Position numbers and translations under genes: made by a program | From: Herbaspirillum sp. RTI4 | GTDB lineage: Bacteria > Pseudomonadota > Gammaproteobacteria > Burkholderiales > Burkholderiaceae_D | Assembly: GCF_034313965.1 (NCBI RefSeq) | Contig: NZ_JAVIWQ010000002.1 | Location: forward strand, 1,302,001-1,366,000 | Direction: 5' to 3' | DNA: 64,000 nucleotides | Shown here: positions 29,870 to 35,581 of the stretch, piece by piece | How positions within the stretch are numbered: the stretch's first letter is position 1 | Layout of the letters: each line of letters opens with the position of its first letter | Notes under the pieces: generated by a model | Seen by the model: the letters and a program-made list of their open reading frames with translations, nothing else | Told to the model about the DNA's origin: nothing | The model's database searches: none

Positions 29870-30325
29870 ATGTCCGATATTTCCGCTCTTCTCGTTACAG
29901 CCGATGCGCATCTCACTTTGCATTACCGACTAGCCACTGCTGACGGCGATAATATTGTCAGTACATTCGAAGATAAACCTGCGACGCTGCAAATCGGCGG
30001 CGGTCAGCTGGCTCCTTTTCTGGAAACCTGTCTGTTGGGATTGCCAGACGGCGCGCATCAGACATTTGAATTGACGCCTGAGCAAGCCTTCGGTGCGCGC
30101 AACCCGGATTTGCTGCAACGGGTTTCATTGACTACCTTGCGCGAAAATTCACAAGTCGGAGAAAACTACCGGATCGGTGATGTCGTTGATTTTGCCGCGC
30201 CAGGTGGCGGTCGTTTTGCTGGCGTGTTACGTGAAATCGACGCTGATGGCGCATTGTTCGACTTCAATCATCCGCTGGCAGGACAGATGGTGAAATTTGA
30301 AGTCAAGATCGTCGGAATTTTGTGA
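29870..30325 (+). CDS. fkpB: FKBP-type peptidyl-prolyl cis-trans isomerase (SlpA/FkpB-like)
   Basis: The 151-residue cytoplasmic protein has the FKBP core interrupted by an insert-in-flap domain. [17 protein letters not shown] and [20 protein letters not shown] are typical of SlpA/FkpB chaperone-isomerases. ATG at 29870 is preferred over an earlier in-frame start, which would overlap the divergent radC start. The gene lies directly before ispH, as in E. coli. Confidence 0.9.
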
Positions 30326-30336
30326 GCGAGATCAGC

Positions 30337-31296
30337 ATGACTCATCCAGAGCAACTCGAAGTATTGTTAGCGCAACCGCGCGGGTTTTGCGCCGGCGTAG
30401 ATCGCGCTATCGAAATTGTCGAGCGTGCGATCCAACAATTCGGAGCGCCGATCTACGTGCGTCACGAAATCGTGCATAACGCCTATGTTGTGCGGGATTT
30501 GCGCACCAAAGGAGCGATTTTTATTGAGGAGCTGCAGGACGTCCCGCCAGGAAATACTGTCATCTTTTCCGCGCACGGTGTTTCCCGGGCAGTTCAGGAT
30601 GAGGCAGTTCAGCGCGGACTGACGGTGTTTGACGCGACGTGTCCGTTAGTGACCAAGGTACACATGGAGGTCGCAAAAATGCGTCGCGAAGGACGCGATA
30701 TCGTGATGATTGGTCATGAAGGGCATCCGGAAGTAGAGGGTACGATGGGGCAAACCGATGGTGGCATGCACCTGGTCGAAACGGTCGACGATGTCGCGCG
30801 GTTGCAGGTGGGCAATGCAGAAATGCTCGCTTACGTGTCGCAAACAACGCTTTCTGTTGATGATACGGCGGAGATTATTGCCGCACTCAAAAATCGTTTT
30901 CCCTTGATCGTTGAGCCCAAAAAGGGAGACATTTGTTATGCCACGACCAACCGGCAGGAAGCCGTTAAATTCATGGCGCCACAATCGGATCTGGTTATCG
31001 TAGTGGGTAGTTCCAATAGCTCCAATTCCAATCGCTTGCGAGAAGTCGCCGAAAAAATGGGAGTTCCTGCGCATATGGTCGACAATGCGACTGAAATAGA
31101 TCCAGCCTGGCTTAAAAACAAACTACGCATCGGTGTGAGCGCGAGCGCATCCACACCTGAAATATTGGTGCAGGCAGTCATTGAGCGACTCAAGGAGTTG
31201 GGTGTAAAAAGCGTGCGCGCGCTCGATGGCCGTGAGGAAAGCGTCAGTTTCCCTATGCCCAAGGGACTCAGCGGCGTCAAGCCTGATCAGGTGTGA
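30337..31296 (+). CDS. ispH: 4-hydroxy-3-methylbut-2-enyl diphosphate reductase
   Basis: The ~319-residue [4Fe-4S] enzyme performs the last step of the MEP isoprenoid pathway, making IPP and DMAPP. The three cluster cysteines are C18 ([11 protein letters not shown]), C102 (FDATCPLV) and C200 (GDICYATTN). [10 protein letters not shown] and SAHGVS carry substrate-binding histidines. A GTG at 30322 overlaps the fkpB stop by 4 bp and is an alternative start adding five residues. Probably co-transcribed with fkpB. Confidence 0.95.
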
Positions 31297-31312
31297 CGTT
31301 AACGTAAAAAGA

Positions 31313-31340
31313 TTGCATGTCGTAACGGCTTCGGTATAAT
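31313..31340 (+). promoter_or_regulatory. sigma-70 promoter of the livHMGF leader
   Basis: TTGCAT (31313-31318) and a perfect TATAAT (31335-31340) are 16 bp apart, beginning 16 bp after the ispH stop codon. The predicted start near 31347 gives a ~375-nt leader ahead of livH. Confidence 0.75.
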
Positions 31341-31506
31341 CCGGCCGCTAGTAAGCTGGCAAACTGCTTCACGAGAGCAGTTGCGGGATTCAATGACATC
31401 CGAGGTAACACGACATTGTTCCGTGTGCGTTCATTCGCCACAATGCCGCCGTCAGCTACGCCGTTCGACAGCCTATGTTGACTGAATACCGAAAAGGAAT
31501 TTCGTT

Positions 31507-31581
31507 ATGCGGATTTTTCTGATTGTCTTTACCTTTCCGCAGCCATTAAACTGCGCGTCAGTTGTGTACCTCCCCAAATAG
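31507..31581 (+). CDS. putative leader peptide of livHMGF
   Basis: A 24-codon ORF with AAGGA 8 nt before ATG. Eight of its 24 residues are Ile, Leu or Val, with I-F-L-I-V at codons 3-7 and V-V near the end (codons 19-20). It ends at TAG 31579-31581, 16 nt before a terminator hairpin. Its composition, placement and distance to the hairpin match peptides that sense charged branched-chain tRNA in ilv attenuators. It was recognised from sequence only; no homologue can be checked here. Confidence 0.55.
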   Translation: MRIFLIVFTFPQPLNCASVVYLPK

Positions 31582-31635
31582 AATTGATCCGACCGCAACG
31601 GCATCTCTGACAGAGTCAGGGAGGCCGTTTTTATT
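31508..31635 (+). promoter_or_regulatory. candidate transcription attenuator ahead of livH
   Basis: Three mutually coherent pairings are visible. TGCGGA (31508-31513) with TCCGCA (31536-31541) forms an early stem inside the leader ORF. CCTCCC (31569-31574), in the last codons of that ORF, pairs with GGGAGG (31619-31624) as antiterminator. The latter belongs to the 3' arm of the terminator (31597-31635). A ribosome stalled on codons 3-7 would leave CCTCCC free; one reaching the stop codon would cover it. Confidence 0.5.
31597..31635 (+). terminator. intrinsic terminator in the liv leader
   Basis: ACGGC-A-TCTCTGAC and GTCAGGGA-G-GCCGT pair along their length (one G-T pair, one internal mismatch) around an AGA loop and run into TTTTATT. 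It lies 89 bp before livH. Confidence 0.8.
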
Positions 31636-31723
31636 ATCGGGAACGGTTTTTGCTGTGCTTTTGTGATGCCCGAGAATTTTGCGGGACATACCGACAATCT
31701 GGTTTTGACTTAAAAGGCTGCAC

Positions 31724-32653
31724 ATGGATATTTTTCTCCAACAATTGATCAATGGGCTCGTGCTTGGCAGCATGTATGCGCTGGTGGCACTGGGTTACAC
31801 GATGGTCTATGGCGTGTTGAACCTGATCAATTTTGCGCACGGCGATGTGCTAATGCTCGGAGCCATGGTCGGACTGAGTCTGTTGCGACTATTGCAAACG
31901 CATGCGCCGCATCTGCCAGGCATTGTGCAACTGGTCATTGCGATTCTGGGTGCCATCCCCGTGTGTATTGCCATCAGCCTGATTATCGAACGGGTTGCCT
32001 ATCGGCCCTTGCGCAATGCACCGCGTCTCGCGCCGCTGATTACCGCGATCGGGATATCCATTTTGCTGCAAACGCTGGCAATGATGATCTGGGGCCGTAG
32101 TCCCGTTTCCTTCCCGCAAGTGATGCCGTCCGAACCAATACATATCGGTGGCGCACTGATTTCGCCAACCCAGGTAATGCTGCTGGTGCTGGCGGTGGTC
32201 GCCATGGCTGGTCTGGTGCTGATGGTGGAAAAAACGAAAATGGGACGTGCCATGCGCGCCACTGCCGAGAACCCGCGGGTAGCCTCGCTGATGGGCGTGG
32301 ACTCCAATCGCGTGATCGTCGTCACTTTCGCCATTGGTGCGGGTTTGGCAGCACTGGCGGGTGTCATGTGGGCCGCAAATTATTCCACGGCACAGTTTGC
32401 GATGGGCTTTGTGCCGGGGTTGAAAGCATTTTCGGCGGCAGTCCTCGGCGGCATCGGCAATATCTACGGCGCGATGCTAGGTGGCATCCTTCTGGGAATT
32501 ATAGAAAGTCTGGGTGCCGGTTATATCGGCGACCTGACAGGGGACTTTTTGGGCAGCAATTACCAGGATATTTTTGCGTTCGTGGTGCTGATCATTGTCT
32601 TGACCTTACGTCCATCCGGCATCATGGGTGAACGTGTTGCCGACCGCGCCTGA
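31724..32653 (+). CDS. livH: branched-chain amino acid ABC transporter permease LivH
   Basis: The 309-residue inner-membrane permease has eight or so helices. It starts MDIFLQQLINGLVLGSMYAL and contains GYTMVYGVLNLINFAHGDV, characteristic of LivH. It pairs with LivM. It is first gene of livHMGF; the periplasmic binding protein (LivJ/K) is not in this window. It sits behind the attenuator-like leader. Confidence 0.93.
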   Translation: MDIFLQQLINGLVLGSMYALVALGYTMVYGVLNLINFAHGDVLMLGAMVGLSLLRLLQTHAPHLPGIVQLVIAILGAIPVCIAISLIIERVAYRPLRNAPRLAPLITAIGISILLQTLAMMIWGRSPVSFPQVMPSEPIHIGGALISPTQVMLLVLAVVAMAGLVLMVEKTKMGRAMRATAENPRVASLMGVDSNRVIVVTFAIGAGLAALAGVMWAANYSTAQFAMGFVPGLKAFSAAVLGGIGNIYGAMLGGILLGIIESLGAGYIGDLTGDFLGSNYQDIFAFVVLIIVLTLRPSGIMGERVADRA

Positions 32654-32703: not shown

Positions 32704-33921
32704 ATGTCCCTGCTTACCTTCGATCGGCAACGCCATCCGCGTCGCACCACAATCAGCTGCCTGTTGTTGCTGGCGCTATTGCTCAGTTTTCCTTTTGTTG
32801 TCAGCCAGTTTGGTAATTCCTGGGTGCGCATTATGGATGTCGCACTGCTCTATATCATGTTGGCGTTAGGACTCAATGTCGTTGTTGGTTTTGCCGGCTT
32901 GCTGGATCTTGGCTATATCGCTTTTTATGCAATCGGCGCTTACACAACCGCGTTATTGGCATCGCCGCAATTCGCCAGCGTACTGGAGTCCTTCGTCAAT
33001 ACCTACCCTGCACTAGGGGAATTCCTGGTCATGGTGTGCGGCCCCGATATCACGCAAAACGGCATTCATCTTTCACTGTGGGTGATTGTGCCGCTATCGG
33101 CCGCTGTCGCCGGACTTTTCGGTGCATTGCTGGGCGCGCCGACCTTAAAGCTCCGCGGTGATTACCTGGCCATTGTGACGTTGGGGTTCGGTGAAATCAT
33201 CCGAATTTTCATGAACAACCTGAATGCGCCCGTCAATATCACCAACGGTCCTCAGGGTATAAACCTGATCGATCCGATTCGTATATTTGGCGTGTCGCTG
33301 GCAGGTGAGCCTGGCAGCGGTTCTATCGTCAAGGTGTTCGGGATGGGGATGCCTTCCGTGAACGCCTACTACTTTCTGTTTCTGGCACTTTGCATCGCGA
33401 TCGTGTTTATCTCGGCGCGATTACATCACTCCCGTCTCGGGCGGGCATGGATCGCGATTCGGGAAGATGAAATCGCGGCCAAAGCGATGGGGATCAACAC
33501 GCGCAATGTCAAGCTGTTGGCTTTTGCAATGGGGGCGTCTTTTGGCGGAGTGGCCGGCGCCATGTTTGCGTCGTTTCAGGGCTTCGTCTCACCGGAATCA
33601 TTTTCACTGACCGAGTCGATTGCCGTACTGGCAATGGTCGTATTAGGTGGTATTGGTCATATCCCTGGAGTGGTACTCGGGGGCATCATCCTGGCGGCAT
33701 TGCCGGAAGTATTGCGCCATGTGGTGGAGCCGTTGCAAATGAGTTTGTTCGGCGCAGTGCTGATCGATGCCGAGGTGTTGCGCCAGTTGCTGTATGGTCT
33801 GGCAATGGTACTCATCATGTTGACCCGTCCTGCAGGATTATGGCCGGCGCCACGCCATGAGGACCGGCCAGAAGCGGAACATCCGCATTCTGACGACGCG
33901 GCAGGCATCGTTAAAGTCTAG
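32704..33921 (+). CDS. livM: branched-chain amino acid ABC transporter permease LivM
   Basis: The 405-residue second permease has helices throughout and the LivM family core GLNVVVGFAGLLDLGYIAFYAIGA (quoted in part: LLDLGYIAFYAIGAY) and the coupling loop GRAWIAIREDEIAAKAMGIN. It follows livH after 50 bp. The polar C-terminal tail (about 380-405) is rich in H, E and D. Confidence 0.92.
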   Translation: MSLLTFDRQRHPRRTTISCLLLLALLLSFPFVVSQFGNSWVRIMDVALLYIMLALGLNVVVGFAGLLDLGYIAFYAIGAYTTALLASPQFASVLESFVNTYPALGEFLVMVCGPDITQNGIHLSLWVIVPLSAAVAGLFGALLGAPTLKLRGDYLAIVTLGFGEIIRIFMNNLNAPVNITNGPQGINLIDPIRIFGVSLAGEPGSGSIVKVFGMGMPSVNAYYFLFLALCIAIVFISARLHHSRLGRAWIAIREDEIAAKAMGINTRNVKLLAFAMGASFGGVAGAMFASFQGFVSPESFSLTESIAVLAMVVLGGIGHIPGVVLGGIILAALPEVLRHVVEPLQMSLFGAVLIDAEVLRQLLYGLAMVLIMLTRPAGLWPAPRHEDRPEAEHPHSDDAAGIVKV

Positions 33922-33968
33922 CCGCAACAGCGGAATAAATTCAATCCGAAAAAGACAGCAGGGACAAC

Positions 33969-34781
33969 ATGAGCAAGCAAGAAATGACTCAACAGCCGAA
34001 TCAACAGTCGGCAACGCCGATATTGCTGAATATAGCCGACGTCAGCAAACGGTTCGGTGGATTGCAAGCCTTATCCGGTGTCAGTCTGCAAATCAGGCAA
34101 GGCCAGATTTACGGTTTGATTGGCCCGAACGGTGCAGGCAAGACGACATTTTTCAACGTCATTACCGGCCTTTATCAGCCCGACAGTGGCAGTTTTGAGC
34201 TGGCGGGAAAGCCCTATTCGCCGAGCGCGCCGCATCGCGTGGCGCAAGCGGGCATTGCCCGGACTTTCCAGAATATTCGTTTGTTTGGCGATATGAGCGT
34301 CCTGGAAAACGTCATGGTCGGTTGCCATGTCCGAACCCGACAAAATGTTTTCGGTGCAATTTTCCGGCATAAGGCGGCAAGGGTCGAGGAGGCGGCGATC
34401 ATGAAAAAATCGCAGCAATTACTGGAGTTTGTTGGCTTGGCAAGCATGGGTGGACGTACTGCGCGGCATTTGTCGTATGGCGATCAGCGTCGTCTTGAAA
34501 TTGCCAGAGCGTTGGCAACCGAGCCTCAATTACTGGCGCTGGACGAACCAGCAGCCGGTATGAACGCCACTGAAAAAGTCGCCTTGCGCGAATTGCTCGT
34601 GAAAATTCAGGCGGACGGAAAGACGATTCTTTTGATTGAACACGATGTCAAATTGATGATGGGTTTGTGCGACCGTCTGACCGTGCTTGATTATGGCAAA
34701 CCTATTGCGGAGGGCTTGCCCGCCGAGCTGCAGAAAAATCCCGCTGTTATCGAAGCCTATCTCGGTAGCGGCAGTCACTAA
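33969..34781 (+). CDS. livG: branched-chain amino acid ABC transporter ATP-binding protein LivG
   Basis: The 270-residue ABC ATPase has Walker A GPNGAGKTT, the LivG-type GIARTFQNIRLFGDMSVLENV segment (in part TFQNIRLFGDMSVLENV), the signature LSYGDQRRLEIARAL and Walker B LLALDEPAAGMN. SYGDQ in place of SGGQ is the usual LivG form. It energises LivHM together with LivF, 17 bp downstream. Confidence 0.93.
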   Translation: MSKQEMTQQPNQQSATPILLNIADVSKRFGGLQALSGVSLQIRQGQIYGLIGPNGAGKTTFFNVITGLYQPDSGSFELAGKPYSPSAPHRVAQAGIARTFQNIRLFGDMSVLENVMVGCHVRTRQNVFGAIFRHKAARVEEAAIMKKSQQLLEFVGLASMGGRTARHLSYGDQRRLEIARALATEPQLLALDEPAAGMNATEKVALRELLVKIQADGKTILLIEHDVKLMMGLCDRLTVLDYGKPIAEGLPAELQKNPAVIEAYLGSGSH

Positions 34782-34798
34782 GCGATCGGCGATTAAAC

Positions 34799-35581
34799 AT
34801 GACTCTCTCTTCCCCTGTTTCCCACCTTGATTCGGCATCGAACGATGCTTCGATTGCGGCACCGACCCTGTTGAAAATCAACCAGCTCAGCGTTGCCTAT
34901 GGCGGTATCAAGGCAGTCAAGGGCATCGACCTTGAAGTACGTGAGGGTGAGCTGGTGACCCTGATCGGCGCCAATGGCGCTGGTAAAACCACTACGCTCA
35001 AGGCAATTACCGGCACGCTCCCTGATTGCCGGGTAAGCGGTCATATTGATTACCTTGGCGTTAGCCTGAAAGGGCGAACTGCTTTTGCATTGGTACAGCA
35101 GAAGCTGGCTATGGTCCCCGAGGGACGCGGCGTATTTACCCGCATGAGTATCCGCGAAAACTTGATGATAGGTGCCTACACCAGCACCGACAAACATCAG
35201 GTTGAAAATGATATTGACTACTGGTTTTCAGTTTTCCCTCGCCTGAAGGAAAGATCGTCGCAAATGGCGGGTACCTTATCGGGTGGCGAACAGCAAATGC
35301 TGGCAATGGCGCGCGCCTTGATGAGTCATCCGCGTCTGCTGCTGCTGGATGAGCCGTCGATGGGACTGTCTCCCATCATGGTAGAGAAAATATTTGAAGT
35401 GATTCGCAACGTGTCGGCGCAGGGAGTCACGATCCTACTGGTCGAGCAAAACGCCAAGCTGGCGTTGGAAGCTGCACATCGCTGCTACGTGATGGAGTCG
35501 GGTTTGATCACCATGCAAGGCCAAGCCAGCGAGATGTTGAATGATCCCCGAATAAAGGCAGCCTATTTGGGCGAGAGCTAA
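34799..35581 (+). CDS. livF: branched-chain amino acid ABC transporter ATP-binding protein LivF
   Basis: The 260-residue second ATPase has Walker A GANGAGKTT, the LivF marker MVPEGRGVFTRMSIRENLMI, the signature LSGGEQQMLAMARAL and Walker B LLLLDEPSMGLSP. It has an N-terminal extension of about 23 residues before the ABC core. It is the last gene of the operon. The frame after its TAA stays open for about 60 more codons (serine-rich), noted separately. Confidence 0.93.
   Translation: MTLSSPVSHLDSASNDASIAAPTLLKINQLSVAYGGIKAVKGIDLEVREGELVTLIGANGAGKTTTLKAITGTLPDCRVSGHIDYLGVSLKGRTAFALVQQKLAMVPEGRGVFTRMSIRENLMIGAYTSTDKHQVENDIDYWFSVFPRLKERSSQMAGTLSGGEQQMLAMARALMSHPRLLLLDEPSMGLSPIMVEKIFEVIRNVSAQGVTILLVEQNAKLALEAAHRCYVMESGLITMQGQASEMLNDPRIKAAYLGES

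Follow-up and report, generated by a model that had tools for sequence, protein, structure and literature searches.

Does the spacer between ispH and livH in Herbaspirillum sp. RTI4 hold an attenuator for the livHMGF operon and, if so, which amino acid would it sense? A sequence-only reading of the window, by which we mean the whole stretch of 64,000 nucleotides analysed, had proposed an ilv/leu-type leader-peptide attenuator at this place. Its leader ORF and terminator proved to be conserved and its appeal to isoleucine codons gained ground, whereas the specific RNA switch and the leucine and valine parts of the signal were not upheld. The flanking genes were as it had named them: ispH (30322–31296, forward strand; NCBIfam TIGR00216 above cut-off) lies upstream, and livH (31724–32653, forward strand; best model LivH at 234 bits, under the strict cut-off of 379) is followed on the same strand by livM, livG, and livF (32704–35581; best models LivM, LivG, and LivF, each under its strict cut-off). 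This gene order, ispH then livH, is retained across the family. All leader elements fall in the gap between the two genes (31297–31723), in the order TATAAT, 24-codon ORF, terminator, GG-N10-GC motif, and then livH.

The predicted leader promoter (31313–31340, forward strand) is of the sigma-70 type and had been called consensus, which is true of its −10 element (TATAAT, 31335–31340) but not of its −35 element (TTGCAT, 31313–31318, 16 nt away), in which only three of six positions agree with the general −35 consensus. It was absent from a consensus promoter scan of the window because of this weak −35 element. Among the relatives, 22 of 24 tabulated loci have TATAAT or a five-of-six −10 match upstream of the ORF. 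The leader ORF (31507–31581, forward strand; MRIFLIVFTFPQPLNCASVVYLPK) indeed comprises 24 codons plus TAG and has positional counterparts in relatives; its ribosome site, said to be good, is present (AAGGAA, 31494–31499) but moderate in strength, at −5.6 kcal/mol. Comparable ORFs (ATG start, 15–35 codons, ribosome-site energy of −5.5 or below, stop 13–19 nt before the hairpin) arose at the window position in just 2 of 5000 shuffles. The intrinsic terminator (31597–31633, forward strand; a 6 + 8 bp stem and a T run) begins 15 nt beyond the stop and is as strong as had been claimed, the hairpin at 31597–31630 with its T run reaching −20.0 kcal/mol against a shuffle mean of −6.7, with 0 of 1000 shuffles as low.

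A DNA search with the 427-base leader returned its own genome as the sole match among 61, the 60 others giving none. Because the leader was unmatched by DNA while the ispH–livH order is kept, gaps in relatives were compared by position. Loci came from LivH and IspH searches, from a motif search, and from a genome scan in which 80 of 537 loci were retained; they amounted to 200 with a LivH start, or 144 after duplicate removal. Eight Oxalobacteraceae groups have a short ORF that is preceded by a ribosome site and ends 14–18 nt before a terminator. These groups are the window's species, Herminiimonas, Oxalicibacterium, Collimonas, Glaciimonas, Undibacterium, the UBA5157 lineage, and the genus with handle g37. 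We then considered an unselected set of 79 loci, that is, those not chosen for the −24/−12 motif described below and with an ispH–livH gap of at least 140 nt; 59 of these had a called terminator no closer than 140 nt to the start of the gap. Of the 36 loci with both motif and terminator, 21 had the ORF–terminator arrangement (expected, 0.12); of the 23 with a terminator but no motif, none did (expected, 0.06). Among the 21 are the window itself, L034, whose hit falls in a different frame from the ORF chosen there, and two pairs of near-duplicates, L095/L096 and L131/L132. For this count the ribosome-site cut-off was set at −5.5 after the window, at −5.6, had failed the earlier limit of −6.0. 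Under that stricter limit, and with the loci selected for the motif counted as well, the ORF was present in 35 of 76 loci (expected, 0.15). All 20 Undibacterium ORFs used were 18 codons long. In these eight groups, a leader ORF ahead of a terminator before livH is a real, conserved, and non-random arrangement.

The arrangement also has exceptions. Four Collimonas loci (L111, L115, L177, and L188) have an ORF frame that runs into the terminator, and the automatically called distance from stop to hairpin is 8–9 nt in L154, L155, and L157. In Herbaspirillum the ORFs are at least 29 nt away from any called hairpin or overlap one, and at several loci of this genus the called hairpin sits behind the −24/−12 motif. 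Loci of Massilia, Rugamonas, and Janthinobacterium have the terminator, with ORF and motif absent. Inspection by eye of the region upstream of ilvB in the window's own genome revealed no ORF–terminator pair.

The codons of the ORF bear on which amino acid might be sensed. The five clustered Ile/Leu/Val codons reported at codons 3–7 read I-F-L-I-V, hence four of that kind and one Phe, and four in any five-codon stretch have a P of 0.12; the total of 8 in 23 codons (P 0.13) is likewise within the range of chance when the window is taken by itself, and Ile itself accounts for 2 of 23 (P 0.17). Across relatives, Ile codons made up 15.4% of the leader ORFs vs 7.2% in dinucleotide shuffles (mean of 14 clades, without Herbaspirillum; z 6.5, 0 of 500), an excess that persisted on leaving out any single clade and stood at 12.8% vs 6.6% (0 of 400) with four Herbaspirillum clades added. 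The other two reading frames had 2.7% and 0.9% Ile. The supposed enrichment in all three branched-chain residues thus holds for Ile, along with a smaller one for Ala (12.0% vs 7.8%; z 3.2, 0 of 500; 14 clades), but not for Leu (z −1.4) or Val (z 1.3) in the same 14 clades. The peptides are mostly unalignable between genera, and a C-terminal likeness (MTRLFG, VIRLAG, VKRLIG) recurs in three groups. Pairwise differences at codon positions 1, 2, and 3 were 0.346, 0.280, and 0.410 in Undibacterium and 0.179, 0.150, and 0.131 in Collimonas, where third positions are no freer than first or second. Selection on the peptide as a protein is therefore weak or absent, which fits a leader peptide and is no proof of translation.

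We next turned to the switch. The earlier proposal paired CCTCCC in the last codons (31569–31574) with GGGAGG in the 3′ arm of the terminator (31619–31624). Both hexamers are present and complementary, with a predicted duplex of −12.4 kcal/mol, but a six-nucleotide match is at chance level (P 0.21 when ORF and gap are both searched, 0.063 for the last 12 codons only), a complement of the 3′ arm forms no pattern in 24 relatives (mean P 0.55), and the terminator outcompetes the duplex. With Leu and Val not enriched either, a classical ilv-type attenuator that senses Ile, Leu, and Val through these hexamers is very improbable. Conservation in close relatives of both the ORF and the alternative pairings was what that proposal had staked itself on; the position of the ORF is conserved and the pairings are not, such that half of what it had named as contrary evidence was found.

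Folding of the window with ribosome footprints at 11 positions, in equilibrium models that can miss kinetic effects, formed the terminator in each of the 12 states considered (pairing 0.81–0.84 at the T run). A further candidate antiterminator at 31451–31465, a mimic of the terminator 3′ arm, was rejected (P 0.07–0.11; wrong ribosome dependence in the model). It paired with the 5′ arm only when the modelled ribosome was late (codons 16–24; 0.48–0.66), the reverse of the proposed logic, in which the pairing segment is masked only once the ribosome has reached the stop. Among relatives, no excess over shuffles was detected for the 3′ half of the ORF with the terminator 5′ arm (mean z 0.01; 33 loci entered and 32 scored, L216 being without a call and the hairpin of L146 mis-set), nor for a hairpin spanning the stop (mean z −0.24; 13 clades, 36 loci), where the strongest values were those of Herminiimonas L025 (z −2.3) and Collimonas (z −1.05). 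Pairing of the 5′ UTR with the terminator 5′ arm likewise had no excess overall (mean z −0.52; 25 loci), and two other pairings of the 5′ UTR or ribosome site with arm or gap gave mean z values of 0.17 and 0.21 (25 loci). Across relatives, no alternative antiterminator pairing rose above shuffles. RNAalifold returned predicted consensus structures for Undibacterium (20) and Collimonas (13), and known RNA families had no match in the window at 30500–32200 (E up to 1) or in the loci of 11 relatives (E up to 0.5). We do not file the module with the classical attenuators, because one of their defining features, alternative pairing, was searched for and not found, and it may still work like one.

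Three of the five Collimonas loci do exceed shuffles (z −2.1, −3.4, and −2.7) in pairing between the ribosome-site region and the segment that separates ORF stop from terminator. At L110, L178, and L179, GTCTCC between ORF stop and terminator complements GGAGAC at the ribosome site, a match that is lost in L114. Such pairing would suit a control that is coupled to translation and reads another signal, for example a nascent-peptide or general translation-speed sensor, in which the short distance from stop to hairpin, just outside a terminating ribosome, would be the working part. The 14–18 nt spacing in the unselected set, the C-terminal likeness, and the Ala excess point the same way. However, peptides that mostly defy alignment between genera, the missing pairing in L099 and L114, and the broken spacing of the four Collimonas loci all speak against a sensor of this sort, which we regard as improbable.

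The sequence-only reading had missed a −24/−12 motif of the sigma-54 type at 31640–31653 (forward strand; GG-N10-GC inside GGGAACGGTTTTTGCT), directly behind the terminator. The pattern GGAAYG-N4-TTGC, in which ten bases separate GG from GC, was present 60–150 nt ahead of livH at 72 of 102 loci, or at 49 of 79 when only the unselected loci are counted; reversed and reverse-complemented stretches matched in 0 of 204 cases. The invariance of GG and TTGC is no evidence here, because the search pattern fixes both. In its exact 16-base form the motif occurred 53 times, in 52 of 392 genomes of the family, vs 2 times for the reversed pattern, and 43 of the 52 sites fetched stand 30–200 nt before livH, with nine lacking that placement. 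We take the motif, with TTGC at −12, to fit the sigma-54 consensus, and rpoN is encoded in the genome (442.4 bits; cut-off 277.35). With a putative sigma-54 promoter behind the terminator, livHMGF could therefore be transcribed in a way that bypasses the leader terminator, and the leader can be regarded as not the sole gate to the operon.

This promoter opens the main rival reading, in which the leader is a separate short transcript, either a small mRNA or a small RNA, the terminator insulates the sigma-54 promoter against transcription arriving from upstream, livHMGF is transcribed from that promoter only, and the ORF serves RNA stability or another non-sensing role. The motif starts 6–7 nt past the T run in the window and adjoins the terminator in 38 loci of the set that includes motif-selected ones; this closeness, the lack of a detected antiterminator, a terminator that is strong in every modelled state, and the complete absence of the ORF from the 23 motif-less loci would all be expected of such a transcript. 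Yet it predicts neither the isoleucine enrichment nor the narrow spacing between terminator and ORFs that cannot be aligned with one another, and in Massilia-type loci the terminator stands between livH and the sole promoter seen by eye, with no motif behind it, and therefore some read-through seems to be needed there. We consider a stand-alone leader transcript a plausible account, if clearly short of probable.

Order, spacing, and conservation of the parts, like the isoleucine excess, are directly visible in the DNA, and we prefer an attenuator reading because a conserved ORF–terminator module carries an excess of codons for an amino acid that is among the substrates of the transporter encoded behind it. 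Our tentative choice, which we put slightly below an even chance, is that livHMGF is preceded by an attenuator tuned to isoleucine and, in tandem with it, a sigma-54 promoter. The sigma-70 promoter would yield a leader RNA with the short ORF and the intrinsic terminator; the ORF would be translated in a manner that depends on charged isoleucine tRNA, and this translation would set how much transcription passes beyond the terminator into livH; and the sigma-54-type promoter behind it would start livHMGF independently, presumably in nitrogen limitation. We infer from the sequence features that the ORF is translated, that translation alters termination, that isoleucine is the signal, and that the −24/−12 motif is used. 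Against this explanation stand the absence of an antiterminator above shuffles, termination in all model states of the window, the mere two Ile codons of the window ORF, and the parallel Ala excess, as well as the Collimonas codon positions, the four Collimonas frames that enter the terminator, the Herbaspirillum ORFs, and the Massilia-type loci. The fuller proposition, an attenuator of this kind head to tail with a sigma-54 promoter that integrates supply of the operon's own substrate, through the ribosome, with nitrogen status, through RpoN, and whose terminator is released without a textbook alternative hairpin, is rather unlikely as a whole.

Ribosome-mediated leader-peptide attenuators are known for the trp, his, thr, ilv, and leu biosynthesis operons, and older work has dealt with leucyl-tRNA and leucine transport in E. 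coli. An attenuator for any liv transporter was not found in the open-access literature searched, outside of which most subscription journals lie. The liv leader shares with the leader-peptide attenuators a promoter, a short ORF with a ribosome site, a leader terminator, and an operon for the amino acid of the enriched codons. Unlike them, it precedes a transporter operon, has no run of cognate codons in the window, places the stop only 14–18 nt before the terminator, has no detected alternative pairing, and is followed by a second predicted promoter behind the terminator. With usual sigma-54 (RpoN) nitrogen-control promoters it has in common the GG-N10-GC spacing, TTGC at −12, the position 60–150 nt before livH, and rpoN in the genome, and differs from them in that the predicted promoter is in tandem with an upstream leader terminator. 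A thr operon attenuator with Thr and Ile codons is cited in PMC9792984. The 'ABC-leaders', premature-terminator attenuators of ABC transporter operons, resemble the liv leader, as far as the relevant sections of PMC2965389 describe them, in having a terminator in the leader of such an operon; the examples in those sections come from Firmicutes and use T-box, riboswitch-like, or other antiterminators, unlike the liv leader, and the word liv is absent from the same text. If true, the model would carry leader-peptide attenuation beyond amino-acid biosynthesis, to the uptake of branched-chain amino acids in beta-proteobacteria, and would be a compact example of one operon on which inputs from translation and from nitrogen status converge. 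It is also directly testable, since the leader ORF is short, easily mutated, and found in many genera.

Several minor observations were made at the related loci. Four Herbaspirillum loci (L005, L008, L010, and L034) have short ORFs with good ribosome sites upstream of livH, Arg/His-rich or of other make-up, and no terminator at the usual distance. In loci of the Massilia/Rugamonas type (L035, L049, L074, L141, L143, L147, L164, L165, L167, and L172), the terminator is placed right before livH behind a short leader with no ORF and no −24/−12 motif, and a promoter-like stretch, CGATATTAGTTTTT..AAAACATCGCTATNAT, is conserved. Upstream of the leader promoter in Undibacterium L123, L146, and L131, a dyad (GGTGG, T-rich, ACCAC) precedes the −10 element and is a possible operator. 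Finally, a second livH was found in the five Herbaspirillum genomes compared (L046/L089, L052/L082, L044/L083, L043/L090, and L008/L084), 98.7–100% identical to the ispH-linked copy; identity begins at the ATG, within a few bases, and the two copies have the coding sequence in common, whereas the leader and the −24/−12 region are not shared.
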